A stretch of 64,000 nt of DNA from Boothiomyces macroporosus (lineage: Eukaryota > Chytridiomycota > Chytridiomycetes > Rhizophydiales > Terramycetaceae): assembly GCA_027604185.1 (NCBI GenBank), contig JADGKB010000026.1:1-64000 (forward strand), in the 5' to 3' direction. Positions within the stretch are counted from its first letter, which is position 1. The number at the start of each line of letters is the position of its first letter. The notes beneath the pieces were generated by a model. That model worked only from the letters and a program-made list of their open reading frames with translations, did not search any database and had not been told where the DNA came from. This document shows, piece by piece, positions 1,040 through 63,837 of the stretch. The position numbers were made by a program, and so were the translations under genes.

Positions 1040-4000
1040 ATGAATGAAGATGAGGAAGAACAGAGCAATTCAATGTCTCAAAAAATAGATGAATCAAGCA
1101 ATGGCGATAACGCAGAAGATACTTTGAAAATGTACGATAATAAAATCGAAGGGAAAGAGTTTCAGTCAGAGAACGCGAAGGCTCTATTAAAACAAGAAGA
1201 AAAGGTGGACTTGAAAAGAATTGATCCTAACACTTTTAGATTAATGTATTTTCAAACTAACTTAGACATTCCTTTGGGTTTCAGTCCCATAAGCGCTCAA
1301 ATATCCATTTTGTGGAAAACAACATTGTTCTGTCATCAATAGGAAACGTTTTAATTTTCTTGAACTTGGAGACTTCTGCCCACTACTATACACAAGGTAT
1401 TGGCAATGGGTCGATTGGGGCAATTTGCGTTCATCCATCAAAAAGGTTTATAGCAGTAGCGGAAAACGCAGAGTCAGACCCAAGTATCTATATTTATACT
1501 TACCCATCCATGACTCTCTTTCGTGTTCTAAAAGGTGGTGCAGAACGAGGGTACTCTGATATTTCCTTCAACAGCCAAGGTACCAAACTGGCTAGTGTTG
1601 CTTCTGACCCAGACTTCATGCTTACTATCTGGAACTGGAAAGAGGAAGCGATTCTACTAAGAAGCAAAGCATTCTCTCAGGTACTCTTTAATTCATAAAT
1701 AGGATGTATTCCGTGTCAGTTTTTCTCAAGAAAATGATGGTATTCTGACCACTTCGGGAATGGGGCATATCAAATTTTGGAGAATGTCTTCGACATTTAC
1801 TGGCTTGAAACTGCAAGGATATTTAGGAAAGTTTGGCGCTTCAGAATTATCTGACATTGCTTCTTTTATGCAGCTTCCTGACGGAAAGGTATTGTCTAGT
1901 ACGGAAACCGGGAATCTCTTGCTATGGGACGGTGGAATGATCAAGTGCGAAATCGGTGTAAAAGGCAAAAAACCTTGTCACCAAGGCCCTATTGAAATTA
2001 TACTTTTAGGAGAAGGAGAAGTGATTACCGGTGGGGAAGATGGTTTTGTTCGGGTATGGGACTTGGAAACCATAGATAACGCCGATGTCATATCCGCTTC
2101 AGGTGAAGGGGGCAGTTCAGTTTCCATCCCTAGAGTTTTTGAATTGGAACCAATAGACGAAATACTGATTGCAAAAGATGTGAAAGTACTGATTACTAAT
2201 TTAGATTAAATCTATCACCCGATTCCCAAGCACAACCCACGATTACTTGGTTCAGGATCAGCAAGGACATTTAATGAAGTTGGATCTCCATAAGCGAACC
2301 AGTGAGAAAATTCTATCATTCCATTCAGGAGCAGTAGCTGGGGTTGCTACCAGTCCTTTAAAACATCAAATGTCATCTTTGGGAAAAGATGGAAAATTGC
2401 ATGTGTATGACTATGTAGCAAGGAGTATGGTGAATAAGATCCACTATCCACAAGGTGGTAGCTATATCTCGTATGTACCTGCGGTAATTTTGTTTCTAAA
2501 TTAGAACTTGGACGCAATGGGATCAACTGTGGCACTGGGGTTTACAGATGGAGTAATCAGGATAGTTTCTACCGTCTCTACAGGTTTCATTCTTCAATAT
2601 GTCCTCAAACCACATAAAAAAGCAATCAACCAAATATATTTCACAAGCGACGGGAAATACATGATTAGTGCTTCAGAGGATTGCTCGATATTCATATTTA
2701 ATCTTGATTACAAAAGGGACAGTGACGGGAAAATATCCCTTCCTTTTACCAAAAACTCAGTGTCCATATCACCTATTGGCTTTTTAACCTTTGATCATGC
2801 TGTTAAATCTATCTCACAGATAAACTCTCAAGATCAAATTGCAGGTGCTGGAAAGAAAGGTACTGCGATACAAGGAAGAAGACTAATGTTTAACTTGTCG
2901 AACGGGGAAATATTTAGTTGCTTTATTCCAAGTGACTTTTCGTTTGATTCAACCACATCGTACGAAATCAGTCATTCTGTACTAAGGGTGGAGAACTGGA
3001 AATATAAAATACCAGAAAAGGTAGTCAAAGAAGTAGAGGAAGAAAAAAAGGTTGAAGAAACCCAAGAACATGCTTTGGAGAACAAAACAAGTTCCAAATC
3101 CAACCTTTTGTCTAAAAACAATTTGACTTTGTCTGTAGAATCATTGAAAAAGCAGAAGGGATTGCTTTTGAATGGTTCAGCGTTATATTACACAGCATTT
3201 TACGGTCTTGAGGAGGGCTTCTTTTTGTGTTCGGTAATGAATGAAGAAAAAGAGTCGGAAGTGAGAATAAGTCACTATATCAATCCTAGTTGGAGTAAAT
3301 TGATAGCAACAATCCCTGGTAAAGTAATCAACATGCACCCAGACAGCACAAATCAATTTTTATTCTTGGGCACTGCAAATGGTGTTAGCGTGGTGATACG
3401 ATTCGGGTTTGCAAAATATGACCTCAATGCAAGCCATTTGTTGGATTTGCACGAAACATACGCTGACTATTCCAAGAATATGGAAAATTTGATTCAGCAG
3501 ACTCTGATAGCCCTCAAACCAGATATGCCAGAACTGAACATCAAAAACCCTCCTTGGGGTATAGTCATCAACGGGCAAGTATGGATTGGACACTTGCATG
3601 ATATAGTAGCTGGGTCGGTAAGCGCGATAGCAATGTCCTATGACCAGTCCTTCTTAATAAGCTCTGGCGCGGATGGCGGAATATTCTTGTGGAGAAACAC
3701 TACAGTAGAAATCGAAAAAGAATCAGAACTTGAAAATTTTGAAGAACACCTCAATCAATTTGGCCAGCCAGAAGATATTTCAGATCCAAATAGCTATTCA
3801 ATTCAAGAAGCCAAATTAAAATCAGAAAAAGATAAGGAGTTAGAGCAAGCCGAGTTCAGGAAGCAGATTATCAGAAATCAAATTCACGAATTAAGAGTTG
3901 AATTCAACTCCATCATTGCTGAGAATGAAAATGCTCCGGCTGGCAAAAAGTTGGATAGGTCAGAAATATGTGTTGACCTATTTTTGAGACAAGACATTGA

Positions 4001-6774
4001 AAAAATGGCCAAAGAAAAGGAAGAAACGCTCCATAAAGAAATGGCATGGATTTCAGAGAAAGAATCAATCGGCCCCAAAAAGCTCTATAGAAAGTTCTTG
4101 GAGCCTTTGCAAACAGAAAGAATAGAGATCAAGGCGTTCCAAACTCTGGCATCTGTGGCTACATTTAGGACGCTAAAGCTTGGTCAGCAATTGGAAAACA
4201 TACTTCAACCTGTAGTTACCCACAATGAAAAAGCAACAGGCAAAGCGGAAGCAGTTGCTGAAAATGTAGAGAAGGCTCAAGCAGTCACTGAAAGCAAGCA
4301 GGACCAGACAGGTGCAAATTCCAAGCTGAACAACAAGGTAATAGGATCATCTAATTCAGAAAATTAAGAAACTAGAGGCACGCAAACAACTTCGTGCAGA
4401 AAGAACTGCAATTTGGAAGCAGTTAATGGACTCTAAGCCGGATGACAAATACCAAGATCCTAAAGATGTTGCCGCTATAAGACATGCAATTAATAATATG
4501 GGAGATTACAAGTTGAAGACTGCTGCAAATTATATTGTTCCTGGAAGTGAAAGAGTGGATGCCGACAAAAAGAAAAGGCAAATTATGTTATTGAATGAAA
4601 GTGTGAAAAACTTGAAAGAAGTAATTAGTTTTAAATTTAGCAATTCAACGAAAAGGTACTAAATCTAAGAACAAAGAAGGTACAATTGGCAGAGTTGATT
4701 ATAAACAGCAACGAGAAACTGAACGGATTAAACCAAAAATTGATTGCTTTGGGAGAAAGCGCTACCTATGTTGAATATAAACCAGAAATAGAAGAAAGTT
4801 GCTTTCCAGAGAATAGGAATATAATCACTGACGCAGATATTGCACAGTTGCAAAAAGAGGAGTTGGAAAACGCATCTTCCAAAAAGTCGAAAGGCGATGA
4901 TCCTATGGGTTTCGGCAACGTTTCAAAAGAGAAACCAATGCAAAAGCCAGCGAACGTGAAGCCAGAACCAGTTACAGTAGCTGAGTCTCCAACCTCATCA
5001 GATTCAAAAACTTTATTGGATTCTACAAAAAAAGCTGCTGCTACAGAGCAAGAAATGTCAGAGACCAAGATTAAGATTATCCAATTACAATACGAGAAAA
5101 CGAATCTCATCAATGCAAGATGATATTAATTCTAGGAAATCGACGTGGGGATACAGAGATTCGATAAAATGATTGCCTTGCTAGCAAAAGAAAGATTGAT
5201 GCTGGCAGCAGGTACTTTTATTTTAATGTCAGATTTGAAATTCGCAGACATCAAGATTCAACTATTATTTAGAGAATGGGTGTTGCTGAAGGAATTTGAA
5301 CAAACAGACAATGCTTTGGCCGACAAACTGAACGCCAAGAAAGCGGAAAAGCACGAAATAGACACAAAGGTTCTCTTTGTTTAACTCAGCTTGCAGAATA
5401 TCGAGAAAAGCTTAATCTCAAAAAGGCGGAGATTGAGGCCGTTATTCAAAAGGAAAGAGAAATCCATGAAGAATACAAAAAAATTATCGGGGAGAATAAC
5501 AAGAATGAAGAGTTTTTGACCAAAGTGTTCAAGAGAAAAATCAAACGTGCAAAGGTACAGACGTATTAATTCAGAAAAAAGCAAAGGAAGGAAACGAGGA
5601 TGATGAAGATATGGAGGAAGAAGATGAAGACAGTGAATCCGACGCATCATCATACAATAGTGAAGACACTCAAGATATAGAGTTTGAAGAAGTTTGTCCT
5701 CCTGAATGTGATCAACATATTTGGTCAAAAGTATTGGAAATCCGAGAAAGGCGTTTAGACCAAGAGGAAATCCTTTCTGAAGTTCAAAAATCAGTAGAGG
5801 TTCGATATAATTAACCCAGATGTTGAAAAAAGAAAATGATTCGCTCCTAAAGAAGGAAAAAATCATTGATGTGGGATTAAAAAATGCAGAAACTGAAATC
5901 CAAGAGTTCCAGACTCAAAAGCAGAGAAAATTAAATGAACTGGACGTCGTTGTACCTCTTAGATTTAGTCAAATTCAATATCTTGAAAACGAGAATTTCC
6001 CCAAAGATATGAGTTCTTGCTTGGTGTTCTACAATGAAGGACTGATACAATTGAAAAGAAGAATCAGGGAACTACACCAGGAAAAGGCCGATATCAAAAA
6101 GCAGCATAGAGAATTACGAAAGCATCATGTTAGCTTCAACAAGAGCAGAAAAGAGAAGCAGCAAAAAGTTGCAGAACTTTCAGAACGCGCAAAGGATGTC
6201 CAAATGCTGAAATTTGGCCAAATTGTAGATTTAGAGAAGCTGGAACGGCTCAGCGTGAATAAAACTGCAGACGAACTCAAAGAAAAACTCCAAAAAGAAG
6301 ATTTAAAAAGATTGAAAGAAGTTGCTGAAGTAGAGGTAAAGACTTTTAACATAGCATAAAATTAGAGATGAAAAGGAAAGATTGATCAGCGTGATTAGAG
6401 AAAATACAGTCAAGCTGGAGAGTCTGGTTGATCTCCAAAAGCAGAAAGCAGATTTAGAAAAGGCTCTAAATGTTAGTCAGACCGTGGTCACTACTGATTT
6501 ATCTGGACAGCAAAAGAAGGATATCGAAGAAAGGGAACGACTAATTAGACTTGTCCAAACGCAGGCACAGCAAATTGAAGCAGTTAAAGAAGAGATTGAA
6601 AGTCTCATTAGAAAACCGATTTCTCGACAGTATGCAAAGCAGCCTGTTCATACCCATGTTCCAATTACAAGGCCAGAGGCGCTGCCAGACATCAATGAGA
6701 TGAACGAAGAATCGGTTGGGTTCCCTGAAACAGAAAATACTGATAATCAAACCAATAATGGAATGGTAGTTTAA
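1040..6774 (+). CDS. CFAP44: Cilia- and flagella-associated protein 44 (WD-repeat, tether complex)
   Basis: Known family role: with CFAP43 it forms the tether/tether-head complex of axonemal inner dynein arms. I reconstruct 13 exons split by 12 introns of 19-22 nt, at 1246-1265, 1681-1702, 2186-2204, 2484-2504, 4338-4359, 4621-4640, 5115-5135 (GC-AG), 5212-5232 (frame-neutral), 5370-5389, 5555-5574, 5800-5819 and 6336-6354. This gives about 1829 aa, close to human CFAP44 (about 1850). The N-terminal 950 residues are WD40 repeats (for example HSGAVAGVATSP, VINGQVWIGHLHD, SADGGIFLWR-like). The rest is coiled coil with the family block VCPPECDQ followed by REKRLDQE-like residues. ATG 1040 is preferred because the upstream GTG frame is not a normal start. 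It implies a motile flagellum. Confidence 0.93.
5115..5135 (+). other. GC-AG intron, 21 nt, in CFAP44
   Basis: The frame in CFAP44 hits a TGA here. No GT lies in a usable position, but removing 21 nt that begin GCAAG and end TCTAG joins TNLIN to EIDVGIQRFDKM in frame. The family shows continuous coiled coil at this point. It is the only clear GC donor among about 90 introns in the window. Confidence 0.75.
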
Positions 6775-6796: not shown

Positions 6797-7870
6797 CTAC
6801 ACAATTTCATCAGTTTTGGACTTTTTTAGCTGCTGTTGCTGAGCATTCTCTGAACTTCTTTTTGAATAGCTATTTCGGGCGGATAGCTTGTACTGTTGTA
6901 ATTTAGGAGGGGCAATTACTTTTGATGCTGGGGTGAACTCTAAACTGTTTGGCTGTTTGCGTTCGTCTCGGTTATTTCCAGCAGCAGAGTTTCCATTATT
7001 ATTTGCACCAGTATTTTGAATGTCGTCTGTTATATTATTCCCATTATTTGACTCCAGAAACGATGCATTGATACACTCAAGATCTGCATTCATGTATAAA
7101 TCATCATCTAAATTAGAATAATTAACCAGAGTCCATGAATTCATCCTTCTCTATAATTTGCGGTGGTTGGGCTGCTGGTGGGACATCTGCTGGAGGAGGC
7201 ACAGGTGCTACCTTGGCAGCTGTTGGCACGGAAGGTGGAGGAATAGTTTTTGGTGCAGATACATTGGAGCGGAACTCCTTTTGCCGATACAAAGAGTTAG
7301 GATCCAAAGCTCTAGCCTAAATATTACACTCAATCAACCTGGGGAGCACTAATTCGACTGATTTTTTTCAAATAGTCCTTATTATATAAACAATTCCCTA
7401 AGCTATTTCCGAAATGCTTGAAAGCTCTCTTTAATGCATCTGTAACTGACTCTTTTTTCGCCTTTTCAATTGCACCAGCTTTTGACCGACAGTTCTCAAT
7501 ACTGCCATAGCCAACATCCTACAATGAATGCGCAACTACTTCATGATAACTTCCATCCTTGAGCGTAACCCGAACAATGGTTGATATACCAACATTGTAC
7601 TTTCCCTGATCGCAATCCACAAAATCAACCGTTTGATTAACGATAGAGCTTGACCATCCGTTGAACCCAAACTGCTCGTTTGCAAGATTTACCAGCTTCC
7701 ACCCTTCCAAATAATGCAGTTTTGCATTGTTCGGACCTTTTCGTTCAGAAACGTACTCAGCTGAAATTAAGCGAACACTTACGACCAAGCTGAAGTTCAA
7801 GCGAGTTTGTTAAAATGCGAATCTCTTCTTGCGTGTACTGGACATGTCCAAAAGTTACGTCTTGTTTCAT
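6797..7870 (-). CDS. RAD52: DNA repair protein RAD52
   Basis: RAD52 anneals single-stranded DNA and loads Rad51 in homologous recombination. Five exons (7870-7783, 7760-7540, 7518-7339, 7316-7127, 7107-6797) are joined by introns of 22, 21, 22 and 19 nt and give 329 aa. The N-terminal about 165 residues carry the conserved annealing fold: [45 protein letters not shown] (in pieces), DGSYHEDVGYGS, and [11 protein letters not shown]. The C-terminal half is Asn/Gln-rich and poorly conserved, as is usual, ending in a Lys-rich patch (KKSKTDE) that may serve as a nuclear signal. Start: ATG 7870 lies directly before the conserved FGHVQYT block. It lies 22 bp from the convergent end of CFAP44. It is shorter than the yeast or human protein (about 420-470 aa), mainly in the tail. 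Confidence 0.93.
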
Positions 7871-7937: not shown

Positions 7938-9232
7938 TTATTTTGAGACTACAAATGCTTTCGGAAAGATTCCTTTTCTTCCGGCAATTTCTCCTTCGTA
8001 CCAATTCTCATCCACTAAATCAAATTCAGTTTACCTGAAGATATAATTGCAACTTCTTCTCCTACGCGTATTGTCAAGTCACCTTCTTCCATTCCATTGA
8101 ACTCTTTTACCACTTTTACAAATTGTCTCCTTGGTAGCGGAGGAGGTGGGGTTTCCGAATAGGTAGGAGGTGGTCCATGACTGGGATTGGAGGCCAACAA
8201 ATTTGTTTGATTTAAAGGTGGAGGCATGCCTGGTGGGACTTTTGGCTTTGTAAACACTCGTGGAGGAGGTGCTGGTAGCCCTTCCAGGATAGACCTTCCT
8301 TCTGGCTTTGGTTGAACTGGTTGTTTTGGCTGTTTCGGCGGAGTATCATTTTGTAACGATTTTCCAGATATCGGGATTTGGTTTCCTCCAACATCTGCTT
8401 TTACTTGCATACCTCCAATCAATTCTTTGGTGGCACCAGTGCTATGCATTGTTTTTGCAGCTTGCGCAGCTGATTTTGGATCAACAGCAAACGAAACATT
8501 TCCATCAGCCCCTATTTTAGGTTTTATTCCTTTCGCCAACTGGAACGCAGCACCACTTGTTACTGCTTTTTGGGCAACTGAAGCAGCAACCGCAGAATCG
8601 ACTGATACTTCCACAGGAACATCTCCAACTTTAGTTTGAACTGGGATAGATTGGCTTTGCTTGATATTCTTTACAGGTAATTGTGGAGCCAGACTCTGTC
8701 TATTTTGTGGTATAGTATTTGGCTGTATTTTTTCTCTTGATGGAAGTGGAATCGTTGGTTTATTTTCGTTGACTGCAGCATCTCTAGTAGGAAGAGATGG
8801 CTTCATTGGCTCTCTTGCGGGGTTGAATGGTGTAGCTTTTTGTGTATCATTTTCCACTTTTCTAATAGGCATTTCTGGTTTCCTTTGCTGTACTTGTGGA
8901 ATTACTTCTGATTGATCTGCAGTAGGTTTTACATTTCGCGCAAGTTGGATATTTGGCTTACTCTCTTGAATCTCTGGAGCTTTCAACGTGTTATCTGTTC
9001 CTTTTAATGCAGAGGGCGGCGCTGACGGCATCCGAGGCTTTGGCACTGGTTCAGAAGGAGGATTATTCTTACTAGAAATATTTGGGGGTGGTAATAGCTT
9101 TCTCAACTTGGTAACGACATCTTTTTGAATCCATTCTCGCTTTTCCAACTCTAATATTATCCGAATAATACCTTGAATAGAATAATCGATCCGATTTAAG
9201 CAGTAGTTGAATAATTCTTCATCTTTGGACAT
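7938..9232 (-). CDS. Pro-rich protein with C-terminal SH3 domain (Lsb1/Pin3-like arrangement)
   Basis: Two exons (9232-8035 and 8014-7938; 20-nt intron) encode 424 aa. Residues 1-50 form a helical segment (EELFNYCLNRIDYSIQGIIRIILELE) like that of yeast Lsb1/Pin3-type actin-patch adaptors. The middle is rich in Pro, Lys and Ser with short PPxP and PPPPLPRR motifs. Residues about 365-424 are an SH3 domain: VKVVKEFNGMEEGDLTIRVGE, then VDENWYEGEIAGRKGIFPKAFV after the intron. The WY, G and FP residues of the ligand groove are all present. The domain order suggests a role in actin/endocytosis adaptor complexes; that is inference. It shares its 5' flank (23 bp between starts) with DCTN5. Confidence 0.8.
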
Positions 9233-10448: not shown

Positions 10449-11961
10449 ATGTTGGCAGAAAAACAAGATCTGATGGAAGAAATTAATATTCGTTCTAGAA
10501 AGACAGTAAAGGAAGTCAAAAAAGTTCAAGCGGAAACCAAAACCGAAGCTGTGGATGAAAAGGCGACGAATTGGGGTAGATCTTGGGGTACATTCATTCT
10601 AATGTAGAAATCAGTAACTGGACTGTCGCTGGATGTTTCTTTATGATGGCCTTCTGCCCAACAATAGTATTATTCTTTTGGTTGGCATGCGATTCGTTCC
10701 AATGCTCAATCGTCAGCCCAGTTGAATTTGCGGTTCAAAATGGTTGGGAGAAATTCGTGATGGATTATTTCCCAAAGCCAACTGTGTATGGCTTTCAACT
10801 ATACTTTGGATGGCTGTTTTTCCAAGCCGCCCTTTACACATTCTTGCCTGGAAAAATTGGATAGTAGCTCTACATTAATCTTAGCGGTCAAATGACTCCT
10901 GCTGGACACAAGTTACCTTACGTTGTTAATGGATTACTCGCGTGGGTTGTAACCCACGCTTTATTCCTAGTTGGATCTCTCCGCTACAAATTGTTTGACG
11001 CTTCCATCATTGCGGATAATTGGGGATCTTTGATGATTGCAGCCACTGCCTATGGATACTTTTTAACTGGATTTGCTTACTTTAAAGCCCATGTTTTCCC
11101 ATCCCATCCTGCAGATCGCAAATTCTCCAACTCTATAATGTACGATATGTTTATGGGTATTGAATTCAACCCTAGGTTCGGAAAATACTTTGATTTCAAG
11201 TTATTCCACAATGGCCGTCCTGGGATTGTTGCATGGACCTTGATCAATTTGTCTTTTGCTGCTGCTCAATACAACGAGATTGGATATGTTACCAACTCTA
11301 TGATTTTGCTAAACTTTTTGCATGCAGTATACGTATTGGATTTCTTTTACCATGAAGTAATTCTTGTTAATGGTAGGATTGGTATTTGCGGACTATTGAT
11401 ATCGCACATGATCATTTTGGATTCTATCTTGCATGGGGCGACTCTGTTTGGTTACCATATATGGTAATTTATCTCTAAAGCTAGTATACTCTGCAATCAC
11501 ACTTTTTACTTCGCCATCCACTTGATTTATCATTTGAATACTTTACCCTTGTTTTTACAATTGGCATGGTAGGATACTATATTTTCCGTACAGTAAACAA
11601 CCAAAAGGATTTAGTTAGATCAACCAACGGTAAATGCTTGATTTGGGGTAAGCCAGCTGAATACATTCGTACCAACTTTGTTACTTCTGATGGTAAAGTT
11701 CATGGATCTTTGTTACTCACTTCTGGTTATTGGGGAATCAGCAGACATTTCAATTATGTCGGTGATTTACTAATGTCTCTCGCATTCTGTATGACTTGCG
11801 GTTATGGTTACATTTTACCATACTTTTACATTGTCTACATGACAATCTTGCTTTGCCAAAGAATTGAAAGAGACCATTTGAGATTAGTTGGTAAATACGG
11901 CAAATACTGGGACGAATACTGCAAAAAAGTACCATACAAGTTGATTCCATTTATTTACTAA
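10449..11961 (+). CDS. DHCR7: 7-dehydrocholesterol reductase (sterol delta7-reductase)
   Basis: This ER membrane enzyme of the ERG4/ERG24 family uses NADPH to reduce the delta7 double bond of sterols. Five exons (10449-10587, 10608-10863, 10885-11356, 11377-11463, 11485-11961) with introns of 20, 21, 20 and 21 nt give 476 aa, against 475 in human. Diagnostic motifs are [94 protein letters not shown] and the C-terminal [21 protein letters not shown]. The [11 protein letters not shown] and NYVGDL blocks fit DHCR7 rather than delta14- or delta24(28)-reductases. Yeast and most Dikarya lack this enzyme, so it predicts delta5 (cholesterol-type) sterols rather than ergosterol. Confidence 0.95.
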
Positions 11962-26601: not shown

Positions 26602-26681
26602 ATACTTGTTTATCTTCGTGCCATTTACCGTGACAATGTATTATTGCTTTTCTCGGCGGAAACGTCATTTTTTCGTGCCCC

Positions 26682-30954: not shown

Positions 30955-31932
<978 letters not shown>

Positions 31933-37725: not shown

Positions 37726-38127
37726 TATATCTAATTGGTAAAGTTCTTTATCAGAATTGCCTATAGAGTCTATAGCAAGAATTTGTATGTTTCAAAACAA
37801 TATACCAGTAACTTGCTTGGTATTAATAGCTGGATTGTTCAAAACTCGCGTGCTACTATTTATCAGTTCATTATTAGAACCGACTCCCAGTGTCAGTTGT
37901 TTTTATAATTACGCATAGCGAATCAACTGAAAGAGGTTCTTAGACCAAGGAAATTGGATACTTTATCCTGGGCAATCGAGTTCGTTTATTGGTCAAACTT
38001 TTTGGAAATAGTTCTTCGAGAACGCTCTCTGACTCTTAATACTTTGCATGACTGTGAATTTAAAGTTCCATGGCTAGCTGGTGAGTCACTTTGTCTCCAG
38101 TTTTTGAACTTGGCAAATCTAAAAAGA
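37726..38127. other. Intergenic region upstream of listerin
   Basis: 402 bp, AT-rich. An in-frame extension of listerin exists from 37954, but the conserved N-terminus starts at ATG 38128. I see no RNA gene or repeat here. Confidence 0.45.
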
Positions 38128-50100: not shown

Positions 50101-50573
50101 AGTTTTTTGCCTGATATCTGCGATATAGTTCTCCGCTGCGTGTAATTGCGTCAACTCTATAAAGTTGATTCGCGCTTTAGGCTCTGTTCCTTGTCCCAGA
50201 ATTCGTTCATTCTCTTTATTTCTAGCTGCTTCTGATTCACGGCGCTTGGCTACAAGCTTCTCCATTCTCTGCTGCTCTTTTCTAATTTTGCGAATATCGT
50301 GTGTGTTATCGTAACCTCTCTTAACTTTAAGACCCAATTCAGCCAATGGATCTTGAAACAAGTCGTCCCCTGCGTCAATTAAAATTTACCAAATCCGTAT
50401 TTCTTTGCCTCGTATATTTTCCAAATGTACTTTGTTAAGCGAGCAGCTATAATACCCACTGGAATGAGGACAAATGGGGCAACAAGAAGAATAGTTGCAT
50501 CATAAAATGAGCTGTCTGTCATTGGCGGATCTCCATCAATAGTGCCATTTATTAACACATCTGGATTGTTCAT
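47110..50573 (-). CDS. Slo/BK-type potassium channel with RCK domains
   Basis: Five exons (50573-50390, 50369-49614, 49593-49505, 49485-47929, 47907-47110; introns 20, 20, 19 and 21 nt) give 1127 aa, near animal Slo1 (about 1200). An extra N-terminal membrane segment (ATILLVAPFVLIPVGIIA) fits S0. S4 is FIRIFRATRILRTYRLL with several Arg. The pore has TFSTIGFGDLTPSS, i.e. GFGD instead of the usual GYGD filter. The tail contains two RCK-like units, the first with HVILGGTVTYSSVIDFCREF and ASAMYLLNS, as in calcium/voltage-gated BK channels. No obvious acidic calcium bowl is seen. ATG 50573 is used; the longer frame begins with TTG. Confidence 0.86.
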
Positions 50574-51804: not shown

Positions 51805-52563
51805 TTAGTATAATATAATGGAAACAAGTACTAGAGTGGCAATCATCAAAAACACTCTACTCATGAAAGCGGCGTTCTCATCATTATTCCCACCGTTAAT
51901 TCCCTACAATTATCTTTTTCATTACCATTTGCAATCCAAACGGAAAGAAGGGAAACACGCCAATATTGAATGTTATCCCATCAAATAAGGAAGGCTGGCT
52001 TCTTTGACCACTAGGTCGCTTTTCTTTAAACCTCGGATCATCCTGCTCTCTTCCCCGAACATATATTGGTATAATATTTTCCTTTTGGATACCTGATTTA
52101 CAAATAGGACATGTGTTTGATGATGTTTGCCCGGAATTCATCCACTTGGAAATGCTACGTTAGTATTCAATTACCATGGCCAACAGTACAAGTGGCCACA
52201 CATGGTAACTACAGGGTTGGAAGCGGTATCCAGACAAATGTTACATTCGAATAGGATTTCTTCTTCCGTCTTTTCTTTTTCCTTTTCGCTCTGTTTCTCT
52301 ACAGTTTCAGGCTTTCCGCCTTTGTATACATAGGAATAAGCAGCTCGCTTCCTTGGCCGTAATTCTGGCGGAATGGATTCAGAAGAAAGTATTTCCGCAA
52401 ATGGATCCATGTCATCATCAATTACTTGGGTGTTTGGTTCCTGTTTGTTTATAGGATTTGCGAAAGGGTCGACATCACTCTTTAGTTCCGATTCTATTTC
52501 TCCACAGGCGTCGTAAATTGCATTTAGTGTTAGTGATTCGACTGTTGCTTCAAGTTGGCTCAT
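51805..52563 (-). CDS. RING finger E3 ligase with C-terminal membrane anchor (RNF5/RNF185-like)
   Basis: Three exons (52563-52175, 52154-51926, 51903-51805; introns 20 and 22 nt) give 238 aa. A C3HC4 RING spans [20 protein letters not shown], then [12 protein letters not shown] and CPICKSGI, complete after splicing. [15 protein letters not shown] follows, like the RMA1/RNF185 family. The C-terminal exon adds a single membrane anchor ([16 protein letters not shown]). The family members are ER-membrane ligases in protein degradation. The N-terminal 85 residues are acidic and extra compared with RNF185 (192 aa in human). ER localisation here is inference from family and anchor. Confidence 0.88.
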
Positions 52564-52623: not shown

Positions 52624-53390
52624 TTATTTCATTAGCTCTGTACATGCGGGGCAGTACCACTTTCCTTTAACTGGACCAGTCAATCCAACGCAGTTGTAGT
52701 GGAACCATTCTTTGGCACAGTCATCGTTGTCACAGGCAATCATCTCTCCGAAACTGACTTGGTTACAAATACAATAAATAGGCTCATTCGGATCAACTTC
52801 ATCCTCAACTAAATCTTCAGTTTGGCTGTCCTTTGATTCGCTATTATTAGTAAACCCAACCTCCTTCTAGAAACCATTCTTCTTTCTTTTCTAGGCTGCG
52901 GTCTAGGCTTTACTCTCTCTCTGTACTCTTCATTCTTGCGTTCTTGGTTAGTGCCATAATACTTTTTGGAGTTACTTTTTCTTCCTTTGGCATCACCCTA
53001 GGTCCAGTCATTTGCTCATCTTCAAATTTACTCAAATCCTCATCCAACCGCTTGACATGACGTTCCACGATATCGTAGGTTTGAGTTGCCAAAAGTACTT
53101 TGTCTTGTCCATGTTTGATTAAAGTCTTGTACAGAGTAATAAGTTTTTTGATTTCGTCATGACGGTCTTGATCTGTTAGATCATGGATAGAAGAAATAAA
53201 TTCAGGAGTGCTGGTTGCTGCCTGTTGCATCAGTTCGTGTGCTTGGCAGTCTAATTCGCGCATCTGTTGTTAGTCCCTTGTACTTGTGTGAGCTGCTTTG
53301 TGAGTTCAATTGGTAGCGATTCAAATGCTGAATTAGAATATTTTTACTGTCCAAGTAATCCTCCAGATACGCCATGGTTGTGCTAGTCAT
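52624..53390 (-). CDS. ING family PHD-finger chromatin protein
   Basis: Five exons (53390-53348, 53327-53284, 53263-52963, 52942-52861, 52840-52624), all four introns 20 nt, give 228 aa. The N-terminal ING domain reads [20 protein letters not shown] and then [17 protein letters not shown] basic linker ([20 protein letters not shown]) follows. The C-terminal PHD finger is [20 protein letters not shown], then [12 protein letters not shown] and WYCPAC, with all Cys4-His-Cys3 ligands. ING proteins read H3K4me3 and recruit histone acetyltransferase or deacetylase complexes. The size and PHD fit the Yng2/ING group. Two exons are only 43 and 44 nt long. Confidence 0.93.
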
Positions 53391-53433: not shown

Positions 53434-54450
53434 TCAAACAGAATTTATTCGTTTTGGCCTTACCGGATCTTTGTTTATATCCGTGGTATTACTTCCTGCT
53501 ACATCAGTGCCAGTGCCTCCGGTAACTTTGGCAGAGCTCTTTTGGTTTACTTGCTTGATGAACTTGAACATTAGTGTAAGGAAAAAGATGTGTCCCATCC
53601 CGATATTCGCTCCAATAATCCTAAATCAAACCAGAAATACGCAAAGGTCGAGCCCAATTTCCCAGTAAAGAACCAAGACACCAACCAAACCAGGCCAGCA
53701 GACCAGTCTATTACCACACCAGCAATTACTAGATAAAATAGTTTGTTTAGCAAGTCAGAGTTTACTTGCTTTTTCGGACTGGAACCTGTTAGCCCTTGTC
53801 TGGCACGATATTGGATAGATACCGCTTTGGCCACATAATATGCATGAAAGGATTCATAAACAATACTAGACAGAGCGAATGCCATGTATCCATAGTTGCT
53901 CCACTCTAGTTAGAAATATACTTACTGTTTTTAACCATGGTGGCCTAGGGTTTCCTAAAGTTCCAATAGTGGTATATAATCCTCCCATCGTTACTACATT
54001 CCAAATGGCGAATCCTATTTGAAAGATAGTGATTCTGCCAGGCGAAAGATATCTGGATCCAGCGACAAAAGCCTTCAAAATATCCAGTTGACTGGGTTAA
54101 TATAACCTACCCTAGTACGGTGAATAGCATTCCTAATTCGCCCAAGACGTTATATCTATTGTTAATAGCCTTTACAGCCAAGAAGCAAATGGAAACGTCG
54201 CATTCGTGTGTACAACAAATTGTAGAATTTGCCAAGCAAGCAAGAGCAAATTCAGTGCCCAGATAAAGTAATACACTTTGGATTTTGCTAAATTCAAATA
54301 TCCTCTAGCTATAGCAAAGAGCATTACTGCCACCAGAATGCCATAGATGAGCATAATAATCGTTGCTATGATATGGCCTGGATATGCGAAATCCATTCCC
54401 GAAAACTGATTTCCTTCCAGGTCATAACCAATTGTGAATGGACCTGGCAT
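53434..54450 (-). CDS. Seven-transmembrane protein, family B copy 2
   Basis: Five exons (54450-54176, 54155-54111, 54091-53926, 53903-53641, 53620-53434; introns 20, 19, 22 and 20 nt) give 311 aa with seven membrane segments. It is a paralogue of copy 1: KSKVYYFIW, WQILQ, GQLDILKAFV, VIDWSAG and IGMGHIFFLTLMFKFIKQVN. Its first intron lies before LYNVLG, whereas copy 1 has its first intron 16 residues earlier. Its third intron, before WSNYGYMAF, has no counterpart in copy 1, but matches the first intron of family A genes (before LSNYVYY and CSNYSYM) in position and phase. The N-terminus has no clear signal peptide. Confidence 0.76.
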
Positions 54451-54947: not shown

Positions 54948-57900
54948 ATGATTCGAATACTTTCCAAACTTCCAAAGAGCACCGCTCGCCTCCCCAATTT
55001 GACCAGGTCAAGGATTCAAGCATTCAAGTGCTACTCCACAATGAACAAATCCTTTGCTTCATTTGCATTCACTGGCAAGTCAGATCAAATGAACAAAGTC
55101 AAAGATTACATCTACGAAAAGGCTTTGATTCCTAAAGAATTGGTAGAGACTGAAGTGCTGTCATTCTACGAGTATAATTGAATTAACCTCGAAATCTAGG
55201 AATCGACGACTTTTACTTTCAGGAAGAATCTGCAGAACGAGTTGGTGAACATATTATTGCATTGTACGGTGCCAAAGTACAGGCGTTTATCAGAAACGAC
55301 ACTCAACCGGAAATCAATTTGAAGCGTCAAACTGATTCTGGAGCTGTATACATTCACACCTCATCTCCAGGTAAATATCATTAAAAAGGCGTTTCCCATC
55401 CAAAAGGATATGAAAAACTAATCGACACTACTTACTTGGATGTCGCATCAGATGAAACTCCATACAGATTGGAAAGTTATCTTTCAACTGGTAAAGTTTC
55501 TTCTTCCGCCGCTGCCACTTTGCGTTGTTACTTGATCCGCAAATGCGATTTCGTCAATCCATTCCCATCAAACGCTGAAATGACTGATATTCAAAGGGTG
55601 GCAGACAAAAACTTTTTGTTCCGTACCACTCCAAAAACCCATGGGTTATTCAAAGATGTAATGGAAAGAGTATTGTCTACTAATGGACCAATCCTTGAAG
55701 TATTTGATCATACATCAACTGGTGAAAGGAGATTGGTTATTGGTTTCAAAAGACGCTCTACCCGTTCATTCTTTTCAGCAATTTCACACGTCTTCCATTA
55801 CTACGGAATCACATCTACCCGCAAATATGTCGACCAGTTCTCTAACGGTGTGACTATTTGCAGTTTTTATTTAAAAGATATTCCTGGAAATGGTAATAGT
55901 CTCGAAGCCGTTATTCAAAATGTCGTTGAAGAAGCCAGTTTATTGTATTGTCTGCCAGTTAATTCACTTCAACAATTCGTTCAGACCAAAGAGCTTTCCG
56001 TACAAGAATGTATTTATGGAAATGTCGGATGGATTTTCGCTCAACATTTCTTGAAGAGATTAGGCTCTGAATATCAAGGTCTTTCTAAAATTGTCGACTT
56101 GAGTAATGTTTCTCATGTTGAAGTATTGACCAATATCAAGAAAAAGCTGCGTTCCGATACTTTTACTAGAGAATACATTCTTGATATTATTGAAAGATAT
56201 CCTTCTCTCGTTCAAGCTTGTTATCAACATTTCAGTGCGCTTCACCACTCTGGAAATGCCAAGGAAGTTAACGACAAGGAGCTCTTGGACAAGATTGCAA
56301 AAGTTGTACAGAACCCAAACGAATTCAAGGTATTTTATTGATAATTCCAGATTTTCGAATCATATATTACTTTTAACAGAGCTATTTTGAAAACCAACTT
56401 TTATAAATCGTCCAAAGTTGCTCTTTCATTCAGACTTGACCCTGCATTCATGTCTGAAATTGAATACCCACGTCCAGTGTTTGGTATGTTTTTGGTTGTT
56501 GGTGCTGGGTTCCGTGGATTCCACCTCAGATTTAGAGATATCGCTCGTGGTGGTATTCGTATTGTTCGTTCCAGAAATTCTGAAAACTATTCCATCAACT
56601 TGCGTAGCTTGCTGGATGAAAACTATGGATTGGCTGCCACTCAGCAACGCAAGAATAAGGATATTCCTGAAGGTGGTTCTAAAGGAACTATTCTTTTGGA
56701 TATTGATCATCAAGACAAACCAAGAGTTGCATTTGAAAAATACTGTGACTCTATCCTTGATTTGTTGATTATGGAAGGCAAGACCAATATTGTTGATTAC
56801 TACAAGCAACCAGAAATTCTCTTCTTTGGTCCTGATGAAGGCACTGCCGATATGATGGACTGGGCTTCACAGCACTCTAGAACTAGGTATATATTAGTTT
56901 AATTAAGAAATTACTCATACTGGAATGCATTTACTACCGGAAAAAGTCAAGCAATCGGAGGTATTCCACACGACACTTTTGGAATGACCACTCGTTCTGT
57001 TCATCAATACGTTTTAGGAATCTACAGAAAACTTGGTTTAAAAGAAGAACATGTTACCAAATTCGTAACTGGTGGTCCGGATGGCGATTTAGGATCAAAC
57101 GAAATCAAGATTTCAAATGACAGAACTATTGGTATCGTGGACGGATCTGGTGTGTTGTACGACCCTAAAGGAATTGATCGTGCAGAATTACTGAGATTGG
57201 CGGAATCTAGATTGACTGTAATCAACTTTGATAAATCCAAGCTTTCTGAAAAAGGATTCTTGGTTTCAGTCGAAGAAAACGATATTACTCTGCCAGGTAA
57301 TTTCCAACTAATGCTAGATGGTACGTTTGTTCCTTCAGGTCTCAAATTCAGAAATGACTTTCACTTGAACCCTCTTTCTTCTGCTGATATCTTTGTTCCA
57401 TGCGGTGGCAGACCAGAATCTATTGGAATCGATAATATCCAGCACATGTTCTTTGACGACGGAACTCCAAGATTCAAGTATATTGTTGAAGGAGCCAACT
57501 TGTTCTTGACCCAAGATGCACGTTTGTTGCTTGAAAAGAAAGGAGTCATCATCTTTAAAGATGCTTCTGCAAACAAAGGAGGTGTAACATCCTCTTCTTT
57601 GGAAGTATTGGCTGCATTGGCATTCAATGATGTTGAATTCCACGAACACATGCAGGTGAAACCTGACCATGTTCCGCAATTCTACAAGGAATACGTAGAA
57701 GCAGTACAAAAGAGCATCGAAAACAATGCCGATTTAGAATTTGAAGCTTTATGGAGGGAATGGAAAGAAACCAAACGTCCAATCTCTATTATTTCTGATG
57801 ACTTGTCATTTGCAATTGTCAAACTTAATGAAGAGTTACAACAAACTTCATTGTGGGATAACATTCCGCTAAGAAAAGTTGTAATGAACGAAGCTTTCCC

Positions 57901-58139: not shown

Positions 58140-61100
58140 ATGAAAGTTCGACCATATCAAATCGAACTGTTGGAACGAGCAATCAAGGAAAATATAATCA
58201 CATATCTGGATACTGGGTGCGGAAAGACTCTAGTTTCAATATTGCTGCTACAGCATTTACTGAAGCCAGGATCACTTGGAATCTTTCTTGCTCCAACGAA
58301 CGCATTGGTTCACCAGCAAGCAAATTCAATAAGATCAGTGACTGAACTATCAGTTGGAGACTATACCTCGCAAAATTCTTCGTTGATTAACTGGAGTCAT
58401 GATGATTGGAAAGCCCAATTTGCATCAATTCAAGTGCTGGTAATGACTCCGCAATTGTGTCTCAATTTACTGAGACATGGATATATAGATTTTAGTCAAG
58501 TAGAACTAGTTATTTTTGACGAATGCCATCATGGGAATAAAGGCCATCCCTATACATTAATCATGAATGAATACTACCACACTCTAGAAGGAAAAAAACC
58601 GAGGATATTAGGCTTAACAGCCTCTCCAATCGGACATGGAATTGTTAACGCTAAACAGCTTCAAGATCGAATGACTGCTCTGCAGAAGCTATTCGATTCC
58701 AAGATTATTACCATAGTTGATCGGGCTCACGTAGGAAGCTATGTAGTTCCCATTACAGGTAAATATTTACTAATCAAGAAATCATTGTGCAATTTGACAG
58801 GTGGTTAGATATGGAGGAAAACTCGGAGTTTAATGAAACCTTCTCCCAACTCACTAGGCAGTTTGAGGAGCAGGGAGAAATCGACACTAAAAAACAGTTG
58901 AATGCGATTAAATATCTAAAAGAACAGTTTGGCTGGCCAGTGACAAGGAAGTTTGTGGAGCTGCAGTTTGGAAATGTCACCAAGAAGAGGAAGGCATCCG
59001 ATATGGAAAGCCCATTTGAACCTTCGTTGCTCCCACCAAAGTTGATTGCGTTAATTAGACTGATTAAAACCCACCACTCTGCAAATGGCCGGTGTATGGT
59101 CTTTGTGGACAGAAAAGCGACTGCTGTAGTGCTGTGCGCTCTTATTAATCAGATATCCTCCAAAGAATTTCCAGAGGTTAGGTGTGGATATCTTACTGGA
59201 TCAAGCGGTGGGATAAAGGAACGGGAAATTAACTTGATTGGCCACAAGGAAACTATCAACTACTTTAGATCCGGCAAGTACAACACGCTAGTAGTTACTC
59301 GTGTTGCCGAAGAAGGCCTTGATATGTAAGAATTTAGGTAATGTTAGTCCTACTTGCAACTTGATTATAATTTTTGATTTATTTAGAAGCAGCATAGGTT
59401 ACATACAGTCTAGAGGCAGGGCACGAAGCCCCAATGGCTCCAAGTACATTATACTGGTAGAAAAGGGCAATTTAGGCAACTGGAAGCATATCGTTGATGC
59501 CAAGAAAACGGAAGATTTGACAAGGAGTGTTGCACTGCAGTTGATGGATGGAGATGCTGATCTTCATCTTGACAAAAATTTCAATGATGATGAAATCATT
59601 ACACTTTTATCGGGAGAAATGGATTTGCCGTTAGAAACCAAAGCAGGAGCAAAACTATTTCCATCTGGATCCATTCAACTTTTACATTGGACATGTGCAG
59701 TGATGCAAGATATAATTGAAGGTGATTCGCTTTTGTATAATCAAGAGATGCCCGGGGAATTAGACTGGGAAAGTATTCTTCAAATTCTACATAGCCAATA
59801 CAGTGATGGTATTGGAAATGAATATGAACTGGAGTTATTACGAAAGCAGGAGCTGGATTTTGGTTATATTTACTCTTGTACTTTTTTGTTGAACGGGAAC
59901 CTGGTCCAGGTGTATGGATATCCGCGAATGAACAAACGTATAGCAAAATTCCACGCAGCTTTCCTTACTTGTTGCTTCTTACATAAGCACAATGTTATAG
60001 ATGACAGACTGTTACCAAAGCAAACAAGCAAGACCACAGTTGAAAGCAGTAAAAGCATCGCAGAAGAAATTTTGGATGATTTTATACCCTCTGCTTTCAT
60101 ACCGACTGCAAAGGTATGTGAATATCATATTACTCCTATTTTGATAGCAGAAAGTGATATTCAGGTATGTATCTTAACCCCTCAGGTTATATCCGCATAT
60201 GATATCCCTCAATTTGACCTGTATTTTGAGCAAAAGAGATTTACTGCAAAGTTTGGACTAAATAAAACAATAACATTCTCTGAAGTTGAGCTATCAACGC
60301 TAGACCAATATAGCAAGACTGTATGGCAATATGCTTTGAACACCAATCAAAAAGTTGCAAATTACGACAAATCGGGATATTTTGGGGAAATTGAATCTAG
60401 AAAATATTATGTTACACCTTTGAAAAACAACATTATTGATTGGCAATCTATCCGAGATGTTATTGGATACAAAAAAGTAACTCTTACAAAAACGAATCTG
60501 TTGAAGGATATGGTTGTATTCACAAAGCATAATAATCGAAAATACTACAACCTTCATTTCCACAATGGAGTGAATAGTAGCTCTGAATTTGAAAAGACCA
60601 CAGGAGCAAAGAAAACTAAAATCTCTTACAAAGATTATTTCGATGATCTGGGTTATACCATTACTGATGCGAGCTTTCCTGTCCGTGCTTATGCAGTTCC
60701 GTTAATTCGAAATTGCTTAATCAATACAGAAGAATCTGCACATAGGGAAGCTATACTCTTGTCAGAAGCCTGCGCAGCATGTCCAATTTCGAAATCAATG
60801 TTGCGATTACTTCACCTAGTTCCAACTATTTTATGGAAGCTTCACATTGGCGCAGCTATTGATGACTTTTTCAACACTTTCGGATACGAGAAATTGCCAA
60901 AATCAATTGTTTATCCTGCCTTTATCACTCCAAATGCTGACGAGTCAATAAATTATGATAGGTTGGAGATTTTGGGCGATGCGTTTCTCAAGTATGCGAG
61001 CTCAATATATCTCTACTCCAAAAAGGAATTGAAAAGTGAAGGTGCTTTATCTAAACAAAGATCAGTAATAGTATCCAACTCTACACTTACAAGGATCGCA

Positions 61101-62167
61101 AAAGCTTTAGAATTCTCTAAATTTCTAACCGTTATACCATTTTCGAGTAGTTTTTGGGCACCACCTGGATTGAAACCTTGGAGACTAGTTAATCCTGATC
61201 CTGACGAAAAGCCTCCACCGAAAATAGCAGGATCCAAAACATTTGCTGACTTTGTAGAAGCGCTGATTGGTGCATATTGGAGGTATTCAAATGAAGAAGG
61301 AGCTTGGTATATTGCATCTCAATTAAAGATTTTGCCAGAGCTCAAAGTGGTTCAAGAAAATTTATCAACTCTTCCAATTAAACAAACCCAAAGCTCATTG
61401 ATTGATTTTGATAGGTTAGAAGCTATATTGGGATACAAGTTTAACCAGAAATCGTTGCTTACTCTATGCTTCACTCATCCCACATTCAACCCAAAATTTA
61501 GTTATGAAAGGCTAGAGTTTCTTGGAGATTCAATATTAGATTTTCTGCTTATCAAATATTGCTTTGAAAAGTACCCTCAGACTACACCAGGGATGTTGTC
61601 AAAGTTGAAACAAGCAGCAGTTAATAACGAGAGTTTGGCAAGATTATCATTCAAACTACAGTTGAACGAATTTGTGTTGATAAACTCTACAATAATTGAA
61701 CGCGAGCTGGAAGAATATACAACTTATTTGAAAAATGGAAACATTTTTATTGATCCATTTGAAACCTTGGTTGAAGGTATCTAATGCTAATCTCAGGTCC
61801 CAAAGTGCTTGGAGATGTCCTGGAAGCCTTACTGGGTGCCATATATATAGATTGTAATTACAGGCTGGATATTGTCTGGCAAGTACTGTATCAACATTGG
61901 AAAGTGTTTGTAGACACTTTTATCACACCAGAAGCTGTCAGTACTAGCCCAGTGAGGCTGATGATGGAGCACTTTCAAGCAGATGCAATCAATTCAAAGG
62001 ATATCTCCTTTAAATATTTTAGCCGCAACCAAGGTGGGAACCTTGACTCTCATGAATGTGTTATATTCTTGAAGGGGTTGGAAATTGCAAGAGGATTTGG
62101 AAACACCAAAGTAATGGCGAAAAAGAGAGCCGCCAAAGAGTGCCTCGAGTGGATGAAAAACAAGTAA
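58140..62167 (+). CDS. DCL: Dicer-like endoribonuclease
   Basis: It cuts double-stranded RNA into small RNAs. Five exons (58140-58758, 58779-59325, 59348-60164, 60186-61776, 61797-62167; introns 20, 22, 21 and 20 nt) give 1314 aa. Domains in order: DExH helicase (DTGCGKT, DECHHG, LTASP, VATRVAEEGLD-like, then YIQSRGRARS) to about residue 440; a Dicer dimerisation region; a PAZ-like stretch ending SYKDYFDDLGYTITDASFP at about 800; RNase IIIa (DRLEILGDAFLKYAS, DFVEALIGAYW); RNase IIIb (ERLEFLGDSILDFLL, GDVLEALLGAIYID); and a C-terminal dsRNA-binding domain (NTKVMAKKRAAKECLEWM). The acidic catalytic residues of both RNase III units are present. It starts 52 bp after NAD-GDH. Confidence 0.93.
60165..60185 (+). 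other. Frame-neutral 21-nt intron in Dicer
   Basis: It starts GTATGT and ends CCCCTCAG, with a TTAAC branch-like element. It contains no stop and its length is a multiple of three, so it also reads as VCILTPQ. By its ends and length it looks like an intron. The coding alternative cannot be excluded without RNA. Confidence 0.65.
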
Positions 62168-62179: not shown

Positions 62180-63837
62180 CTATTCTTTCTGTTGATTAAT
62201 AACACGGAAGATATCAGGTACATTATCAACAATGATTCCATTAATTCCAGCATTCACTTGGATACGCGCATCTTCAATGTTGTTGTTCTTTCCTCCATAA
62301 GACAATATGTTTAGCCCAAGGTTTTGGATCTTTTTGATCAACGCTGGACAGTCAATAAGCGGGCCGCAATAAGTAACAACCCCGTCGAGTTTGAAATCTA
62401 GAGCTACTTGAACAGCATCGGCCAAACTATTGAGTCGAACATCATAATATTTTTGTGCTCCTGCAACTGTCAAGTAGAAAACAGGATATTTTTTCTATGT
62501 CAACTGATATTACCTGTTTCATTCTCAAAAGTAGACACATCTCTGGGTGGAAACTTGAAAAATACAGCTTTCTTTTCCCGGCATTCCTGAACACAACTTT
62601 TAGTATTTCATCACAGAATGTGTTGATTTCAGCATTGTTTAATGTTTCATCTTGAGCTTCTTCTAGGTTTGGATATTTTACTTCAATATTAAATCCGGTT
62701 TTCAGTGGAACTTTTTGGAATACTTGTAGGAGGGAACAGAATGCAGACTGGATTGTACCTATTTTATTTGTCGTTTACCAGCTCCATTCGGCTTTATGGT
62801 TGCCATTTCTACATTCTTGTTGAAATTGGAAGATGAATTCCTTCTAGAAAGCTTGGGTCTATTTCCAACAAAATCATTGAACTTGATATTGGAAACTGGG
62901 TTGTGCACACCCCATTCAGTTGTAGTGACTATGGTTAACATTACTTACAATCGTGATAAATGACTGGAATGTGGTCTTGAGTAAGCTGAACATCAAATTC
63001 AACAAATTCAGCTCCAAATTCTCCCCCTTTGATCAATGACTGGACAGTGTTTTCTCCCAATTGCAATCGGGATTTTCCTTCTATGTTGATCTTCCGATTA
63101 GCTCCAGCACCCCTGTGTCCAACTAATACAGTTTTGGATCCACCAAATGGATCTCTCTCATCCGTGCCACCAACACAAGGTTTTACCACAGTGTATTCCA
63201 GGGTAACGTTGCCAATAATACCCATATCGAAGGTATATACTGGGACTTCTAATCTGCCGCCAATTGGCTTTTTTTCGTTCCACAAAGAATCCGGAGTAGT
63301 GTTCAGTTTTTGAACAGCTTTCGCGCACACCTTTCCTCCAACTAAAAAATCAAATTCAATCACCGTTTGCCCCACATTTTCAGTGAGAAAATAAAAGTAG
63401 GATGATACCTTGTCTTTGAAATCTGTGAATAGAATCTCTACTGGGTGCAGATCAATGCTGACTGGCTTGCCCTGCTTGGAGTGAATTTTCAGTTTGAAAT
63501 CTTCTAATCCTTCAACAGAAACTTGCTTTGTATCGTTGCGCAAATCAAAGGAACCCAAATGGCAGGCAATCAAGTTTTCAGAGTTTAATATTTTTCTTCC
63601 AGACAACAATATTTCGGTGGGTGTTTGCAGTACCGGTGCTGGTTTAAACCTTGAATCTGCCCCGATAACTTTGATTAGTTCATGCTGAGCATTATAGACA
63701 GCCAATTCGTACGCTGCTGATACGTTGATATCAGTAGCAGATGAAAGAATTTGGGAAACTTGGTCTTTCATCCCTGATTTGACTACTATCATTTACTAAT
63801 TACCTGCTGCTTCTAATCTTTCTTGATCGCTGGCCAT
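62180..63837 (-). CDS. GDE1: Glycerophosphodiester phosphodiesterase, Gde1-like without SPX/ankyrin
   Basis: It hydrolyses glycerophosphocholine to choline and glycerol-3-phosphate. Five exons (63837-63804, 63782-62949, 62928-62779, 62758-62514, 62494-62180) with introns of 21, 20, 20 and 19 nt give 525 aa. The first acceptor is a TAGTAG pair, so an 18-nt intron and one extra residue are also possible. Residues 1-210 match the C2-like domain of Gde1/GPCPD1. The GDPD barrel follows: VLVGHRGAGANRK, LGENTVQSLIKGGEFGAEFV, EFDVQLTQDHIPVIYHDF (HR, ExD and HD catalytic residues), IEVKYPN and YPVFYLTVAG. The SPX and ankyrin parts of yeast Gde1 are absent. It converges on Dicer with 12 bp between stops. 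Confidence 0.9.

Follow-up and report, generated by a model that had tools for sequence, protein, structure and literature searches.

Genomes in which ultrashort spliceosomal introns are the norm were previously known, in the sections of the literature drawn on here, from ciliates, a nucleomorph, mikrocytids and dicyemids. The nucleomorph is that of Bigelowiella natans. The DNA analysed here is a 64,000-nucleotide (nt) stretch of the chytrid fungus Boothiomyces macroporosus (G000:C26:1-64000, from an assembly of 15.2 Mb in 216 contigs; hereafter the window), and its introns are, in our reading, ordinary U2-type (major) spliceosomal introns that have been reduced to about 19-22 nt genome-wide, an interpretation to which we give a probability of about 0.88. 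Twenty 10-kb stretches from twenty other contigs were added to the window, giving a sample of 264 kb from 21 contigs, less than 2% of the genome, to which the counts of modelled introns and motifs refer unless the window is named.

Every one of the 8806 annotated introns of Stentor coeruleus has a length of 15 or 16 nt, and the cited sections of that report describe several features that recur in B. macroporosus (PMC9505925). The branch adenosine is at position 10 of 15 in most Stentor introns, which puts it 5 nt from the last nucleotide, a distance also shown by the putative branch adenosine here; the most abundant Stentor intron starts GUAAUU, and GTAATT is the commonest donor in B. macroporosus (44/259 modelled introns of 18-23 nt); and the U1, U2 and U6 sites are canonical, with homologues of U2AF65 and SF1 listed (PMC9505925). 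The two systems differ in length (15-16 nt against 19-22 nt), in the branch sequence, which in the same sections has no strong consensus in Stentor whereas a YTRAY motif is readable in B. macroporosus, and in the splicing factors Slu7 and Prp18, which are listed as not found in Stentor but are present here (PMC9505925). Two other splicing factors, Cwc25 and Isy1, are reported to be altered in Stentor.

Mikrocytos mackini resembles B. macroporosus in having one very narrow intron length, 16-17 nt, but it is an intracellular parasite for which the cited part of the report gives 224 introns in 179 genes and a spliceosome of 17-19 proteins (PMC10245619), whereas B. macroporosus carries dense short introns (1.35 per kb of modelled coding sequence) and all eight of the spliceosomal parts that were sought with specific models. 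Short introns are also the general state in Paramecium, B. natans and dicyemids, and the donors of the first two are largely limited to GT(A); the cited part of that comparison reports no branch signature for the three (PMC2483917), whereas in B. macroporosus the signature is clear and nearly fixed in position. Among fungi, Cryptococcus neoformans is likewise rich in short introns, and the passages cited here term fungal introns below 60 nt ultrashort; there, however, the average is 56 nt, and introns of less than 40 nt form a small group with the highest retention score (PMC11913375). A preliminary description of the window knew of no fungus with such introns, and our search, confined to the open-access literature, likewise found no report for Boothiomyces, any other chytrid or any other fungus, although one may exist outside it; two chytrid genome papers give intron numbers, not lengths, in their intron passages.

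Results

The standard genetic code serves in this genome, as long frames end at ordinary stops and Pfam families were recognised in 8/10 single frames scanned. Genes were modelled with a semi-Markov gene finder whose three-periodic coding model was trained on long open frames, and which accepted introns of 12-400 nt, all lengths being equally likely, between any GT and any AG, with no splice-site model. Even so, 64 of the 161 GT-AG introns called were 19-22 nt long, while control runs of the same finder with ten other dinucleotide pairs placed only 2-9 of 123-151 calls in this range, the two pairs that occur naturally as rare introns giving 6 (GC-AG) and 5 (AT-AC). A motif scan of the 264 kb independent of the gene models (GTA...YTRAY-N1-2-YAG) returned 216 occurrences at 19-22 nt against 17.4 expected from 20 third-order Markov copies; on either side of this range it returned 4 against 4.4 at 18 nt and 24 against 17.4 at 23-26 nt. 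A motif scan of the window alone gave 45 against 8.6 at 19-22 nt. A small excess in the window at 27-28 nt (18 against 7.4) was dropped, as it is absent from the 264 kb (10 against 8.8).

For the final model, splice-site tables were learned from the finder's own output, GC donors were allowed and an AG end was required; the first 700 bases of the window were masked in these later models. It comprises 347 introns in 124 gene models, and 259 of the 347 calls, made in 264 kb of the 15.2 Mb, are 18-23 nt long, so that most introns lie in a narrow peak below about 30 nt. In the window itself, 25 models contain 82 introns (64 of 18-23 nt). This is close to the roughly 90 introns in 27 genes of the preliminary description, whose view that 18-23 nt is the norm is borne out by both counts and by a length peak absent for the other dinucleotide pairs. 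Spliceosomal introns of 18-23 nt as the norm in this fungus are therefore supported, and the final model is mostly blind to a further kind, stopless introns whose length is a multiple of three.

Thirty-four introns in seven genes (CFAP44, thymidine kinase, listerin, GDH2, Prp8, U2AF65 and Dicer) were fixed by homology, their removal restoring conserved proteins; the genes were picked for available relatives or solved chains and are not a random draw. Their lengths are 18 nt (one), 19 nt (five), 20 nt (13), 21 nt (nine) and 22 nt (six), and 33 are GT-AG and one GC-AG. In Prp8, excising introns of 21, 21 and 22 nt yields a 360-residue product matched by 14 distinct solved Prp8 chains. For 11 of these, including human Prp8 (3jcr, 1442-1801), the match runs from residue 1 to residue 360 and spans 360 residues, and the one alignment shown is free of gaps.

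The CFAP44 gene (1040-6774, forward strand, as are all coordinates up to the end of the account of Dicer) has 12 ultrashort introns by models and homology. Those at 1246-1265 (20 nt), 1681-1702 (22 nt), 2484-2504 (21 nt), 4338-4359 (22 nt) and 4621-4640 (20 nt) are supported by the proteins of Boothiomyces sp. JEL0866 (P0121) and Terramyces (P0122) and by the public B. macroporosus protein (P0123); that at 2186-2204 (19 nt) by P0121 and P0123, with a gap in P0122 after the intron; those at 5212-5232 (21 nt), 5370-5389 (20 nt), 5800-5819 (20 nt) and 6336-6354 (19 nt) by P0121 and P0122; and that at 5555-5574 (20 nt) by P0121. These 11 join gap-free against JEL0866, and the Terramyces protein has gaps beside two of the junctions. 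The twelfth, a 21-nt GC-AG intron at 5115-5135, was modelled at a place where the JEL0866 sequence continues, and it replaced a 159-nt call once GC donors were allowed. The spliced protein is 83% identical to that of JEL0866, 79% to that of Terramyces and, over 71% of the query, 100% to the public B. macroporosus protein, which has the same six junctions and then ends early, implying that the annotators' software used six of these introns. The point at which P0123 stops is the GC-AG intron, which was read through.

The next two genes are compared with the public listerin models of B. macroporosus, JEL0838 and Terramyces (P0241, P0242 and P0244, in no assigned order) and with the Boothiomyces sp. 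JEL0866 listerin (P0243). Both 20-nt introns of thymidine kinase (37260-37279 and 37528-37547), and the last intron of listerin (LTN1; 42665-42684, 20 nt), are supported by P0241 and P0242. Five further LTN1 introns are supported by P0241: 38572-38591 (20 nt) and 39430-39450 (21 nt), each followed by a gap in P0242; 39679-39700 (22 nt) and 40046-40065 (20 nt), each preceded by one; and 38938-38956 (19 nt), called as 40 nt by the model, where the frame stays open after the change. Three others rest on P0243 together with animal listerins. The first, at 42049-42070 (22 nt), is followed by a gap in P0241, P0242 and P0244; the other two, of 20 nt each (42263-42282 and 42352-42371), lie within a single 109-nt call and enclose a 23-residue exon that P0241, P0242 and P0244 skip. 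This exon, hidden in the 109-nt gap of the public models, is present among close relatives only in the JEL0866 model, and four animal and two fungal listerins also carry residues at this place. Over 37107-43201, the public models P0241 and P0242 fuse thymidine kinase with listerin and skip listerin exons, the ultrashort introns being the apparent cause.

In GDH2, the Terramyces protein (P0001) fixes introns at 55371-55388 (18 nt), 56330-56350 (21 nt) and 56887-56907 (21 nt), and the encoded NAD-glutamate dehydrogenase, once spliced, shows 89% identity to that of Terramyces sp. JEL0728, 69% to that of Globomyces and 68% to that of Kappamyces. On these matches and those of CFAP44, a parasite, ciliate or rhizarian origin of the DNA was rejected; they agree with a chytrid of the Rhizophydiales. 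A further 21-nt intron at 57297-57317 contains no stop and breaks no frame, and its seven residues are missing in 11/11 relatives aligned. As this intron is visible only by comparison with relatives, frame-based annotation likely misses others of its kind. In Dicer, a solved chain aligns across the modelled intron at 58759-58778 (20 nt) and, without a gap, across that at 59326-59347 (22 nt, called as 61 nt by the model); a third, at 61777-61796 (20 nt), comes from the model.

Eighteen calls in the window exceed 23 nt, and none of the five examined by homology stood as a long intron. The 40-nt and 109-nt calls in LTN1 became introns of 19 nt and of 20 plus 20 nt, the 61-nt call in Dicer one of 22 nt; a 246-nt call proved to be the gene boundary between thymidine kinase and LTN1, and an 80-nt call in GDH2 gave way to a 20-nt gap without an AG end.

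The 259 modelled introns of 18-23 nt share a compact anatomy. Their donors are GTA (239), GTT (16), GTG (3) and GCA (1), so that 258 start GT and one GC; all end AG, as the model requires, with TAG (172), CAG (59), AAG (24) and GAG (4) as acceptors. GTAATT (44), GTAAAT (25) and GTAAGT (21) are the commonest donors, and the +5 base is T in 124, A in 59, G in 44 and C in 32. A YTRAY-like motif was found in 255 and strict YTRAY in 192, and its branch-like A precedes the last G by 5 nt in 128 introns and by 6 nt in 109. The GTA donors, YAG acceptors (231/259) and branch-like motif close before the AG (237/259 at 5-6 nt) noted earlier for the window thus hold across the sample. Counted from the donor, the A is nucleotide 14 in 116 introns and 15 in 100, and the combinations 14/5, 15/5, 14/6 and 15/6 account for 62, 53, 49 and 45 introns (209/259); the 19-21 nt peak therefore results from two small choices, one putting the A at nucleotide 14 or 15 and the other leaving 5 or 6 nt to the last G. 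Branch position from the final model is partly circular, as the acceptor table spans the branch region, and it is reassuring in this respect that a distance of 5-6 nt from the A to the last G is also seen in 59/70 introns of 18-23 nt called without a splice table and in 29/33 tabulated homology-fixed introns. Among 2117 uncalled GTA..HAG segments of like length, some of which may be missed introns, 743 carry the motif anywhere and 207 at 5-6 nt. Judged by the top-hexamer measure of PMC2483917, the branch has a weak sequence, the commonest hexamer, ATTAAT, occurring in 28/259, as in intron-rich species; the rigid feature, as far as the sequence indicates, appears to be the position of the branch and not its sequence.

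The three small nuclear RNAs (snRNAs) sought, U1, U2 and U6, were all found and keep their canonical pairing sites. The 5' end of U1 reads AUACUUACCUG, and its score of 68.8 falls just under the Rfam gathering score of 69.5; GUGUAGUAUC of U2 is intact in both copies, matching the YTRAY motif of 192/259 introns as a pairing partner; and U6 has ACAGAG. The five proteins sought with specific models, Prp8, U2AF65, SF1, Slu7 and Prp18, were found as well. Unspliced, U2AF65 matches only in pieces and below the family's curated cut-off (230.7 against 310.3 bits); after splicing, the match to solved U2AF65 extends over RRM1-RRM2 and the C-terminal UHM. The first intron of the gene lies upstream of RRM1; its place could not be settled, and it stands outside the verified set. 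SF1 carries the helix-hairpin domain and KRKTRWG, its U2AF-binding motif. Slu7 supports one more intron, of 20 nt, with a Pfam score of 262 bits spliced against 154.6 and 94.7 for the two unspliced pieces. In yeast, Slu7 and Prp18 matter less when the step from branch to exon is short.

Discussion

The preferred interpretation, of ordinary U2-type introns shortened genome-wide, draws on a length peak that arises without splice model or length prior, on the motif excess, on the 34 homology-fixed introns, on the nearly fixed position of the A and on the presence of the snRNAs and splicing factors. We propose the following account of how such introns might be recognised. U1, and then U6, would read the donor, U2 would pair with the branch, SF1 and U2AF65 would assist although no tract follows it, and the AG nearest downstream of the branch would be taken at once, at a length near the smallest workable geometry. 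Donor, branch and acceptor would thereby be packed with almost nothing between them, and two short steps would set the length. With the A 5-6 nt before the last G in 237/259 introns, there is no pyrimidine tract between branch and 3' splice site; the 1-2 nt between branch motif and YAG leave no room for a normal one, so that U2AF65 must bind elsewhere or act differently, and the U-rich stretch from donor to branch (T 0.44 in the 259 introns) is a possible site. To our knowledge, many fungi also lack a pyrimidine tract after the branch, and we do not treat the tract as a strict requirement.

The suggestion in the preliminary description that the spliceosome may be adapted could at most survive in part. 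Adaptation by loss is not supported: U2AF, SF1 and Prp8 homologues had been singled out as places to look for losses, and U2AF65, SF1 and Prp8 are all present, as are Slu7, Prp18, U1, U2 and U6. A strongly reduced spliceosome of the mikrocytid kind is likewise at odds with 5/5 proteins and 3/3 snRNAs found, in a search with specific models for these eight parts. What may stand of the suggestion is the missing room for a normal tract after the branch.

Several observations weigh against the preferred interpretation. G is rare at donor +5 (44/259) though U1 is canonical, and donor recognition may therefore differ from the textbook. The branch A is assigned from sequence only. No U2AF35 was recognised by eye at the 11 of 17 CCCH places that were read, nor an SPF45-like protein among seven G-patch matches, in unspliced frames, in which a split domain could escape. 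As many as 88 of the 347 model calls exceed 23 nt, and beyond the five checked by homology there may be genuine introns among them. Counts of the strict motif also exceed expectation at 38-40 nt (24 against 12.7), 41-60 nt (166 against 83.5) and 61-120 nt (393 against 251.8). Public models of relatives disagree with the final models at some LTN1 and CFAP44 places, and a 20-nt gap in GDH2 implied by P0001 (55172-55191, forward strand), which starts GT and has a branch motif (TTAAC), ends CG; either a rare acceptor or a base-call error, it was not counted as an intron.

Some of these points would be accounted for if the spliceosome were modified so that a factor such as SPF45 bypasses U2AF and it is mainly U6, not U1, that selects the 5' splice site. 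The lack of space for a tract after the branch and the scarcity of +5 G beside a canonical U1 both fit this explanation, and a precedent is offered by a subset of human short introns that, in the parts of the reports cited here, depend on SPF45 and not on U2AF (PMC8363638; PMC11913375). We nevertheless regard it as rather unlikely, since the genome encodes U2AF65 and SF1, each with its main domains, the U-rich donor-to-branch stretch could bind U2AF65, and the G-patch matches include nothing SPF45-like, though an intron could hide one.

It is less likely still that the ultrashort class, while real, stands beside a large class of ordinary introns of 50-400 nt and so is not the norm. The 88 long calls, whose lengths spread without a peak, and the motif excess at 38-120 nt speak for such a class, yet in the finder without splice model GT-AG yields 77 calls above 40 nt, no more than the ten other pairs (92-109), which makes the long calls look like noise. 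Furthermore, a unit resembling a short intron sits at the start of 28 of the 88 and at the end of 38, none of the five long window calls compared with homologues held up as a long intron, and by a rough estimate the long-range motif excess fits true acceptors paired with random upstream GTA.

An explanation of the gaps as indels of the assembly, lesions in pseudogenes or sites of frameshifting is hardly credible: the one GDH2 gap without an AG end is what a sequence error might give, but the GT...AG ends, the nearly fixed branch position, the intactness of conserved proteins such as Prp8, the lack of a length peak for other dinucleotide pairs and the GDH2 intron that breaks no frame and holds no stop, yet is missing in 11/11 relatives aligned, all argue against it. 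Minor (U12-type) or other non-major splicing has just as negligible a chance: nothing was found in its favour, although no search for U12 snRNA was made, the commonest donors (GTAATT, GTAAAT, GTAAGT) and the YTRAY branch are unlike the U12 consensus, and U1, U2 and U6 are canonical.

Ordinary, shortened U2-type introns remain our preferred interpretation; a more far-reaching one may be considered. Boothiomyces, and perhaps all Terramycetaceae, might measure the introns of an entire intron-rich genome with a fixed ruler, made up of a lariat loop of 14-15 nt and a branch-to-exon step of 5-6 nt, with an intact spliceosome, with U2AF65 acting other than through a post-branch tract, and with a donor that has lost its preference for G at +5 while U1 stayed unchanged and that is chosen mainly by U6. 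We put this forward tentatively, as a doubtful but worthwhile proposal. If true, it would break the pattern in the cited part of an earlier comparison, where a rigid branch position was reported from certain intron-poor lineages but not among intron-rich species (PMC2483917).

The lower size limit of spliceosomal introns is apparently approached here in a fungus with seemingly conserved core splicing parts. The assembly of a megadalton machine on 20 nt could therefore be studied free of the missing parts that complicate the parasite and ciliate cases. The branch-to-exon spacing is the same as in Stentor and presumably of independent origin, which points to a physical minimum. On a practical note, public models of this species and its relatives leave out exons or end prematurely at some of these introns, and gene counts and claims of gene loss in this group therefore need care.

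Further features of the window

The remaining ultrashort introns of the window come from the model. On the forward strand they lie at 10864-10884 (21 nt), 11357-11376 (20 nt), 11464-11484 (21 nt), 14669-14687, 16330-16348 and 16945-16963 (19 nt each), 21762-21781 and 21949-21968 (20 nt each), 25503-25521 (19 nt), 25760-25780 (21 nt), 26074-26092 (19 nt) and 45791-45812 (22 nt), to which weak-scoring models add, with low confidence, 28421-28440 and 28658-28677 (20 nt each), 29620-29638 (19 nt) and 29856-29876 (21 nt). On the reverse strand, the 19-nt introns are at 7108-7126, 31384-31402, 49486-49504 and 62495-62513; those of 20 nt at 17606-17625, 17754-17773, 18361-18380, 32124-32143, 44894-44913, 49594-49613, 50370-50389, 52155-52174, 53264-53283, 53621-53640 and 62929-62948; those of 21 nt at 7519-7539, 9151-9171, 44780-44800 and 47908-47928; and those of 22 nt at 43720-43741, 51904-51925 and 53904-53925.

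No tRNA and no Rfam family was found in the window. Its first 686 bases hold, on the reverse strand, a repetitive, Thr/Pro-rich and secreted-looking open frame that skews coding statistics. Four tandem open frames at 26634-30935, judged by eye to encode related multi-pass membrane proteins, have poor gene models, and a single-exon protein at 35186-36814 has no Pfam match, its start resembling Crinkler-type proteins. The Dicer-like gene (58140-62167) encodes a helicase domain, a PAZ domain and two RNase III domains, which makes it likely that this fungus has RNA interference. Elsewhere in the assembly, matches of identical score occur in pairs 42-45 kb apart on one contig (G000:C36:45043 and 87227; G000:C20:74242 and 119309), reflecting either segmental duplication or an assembly artefact; the first C36 match, at 45043, is RBM22-like by eye.

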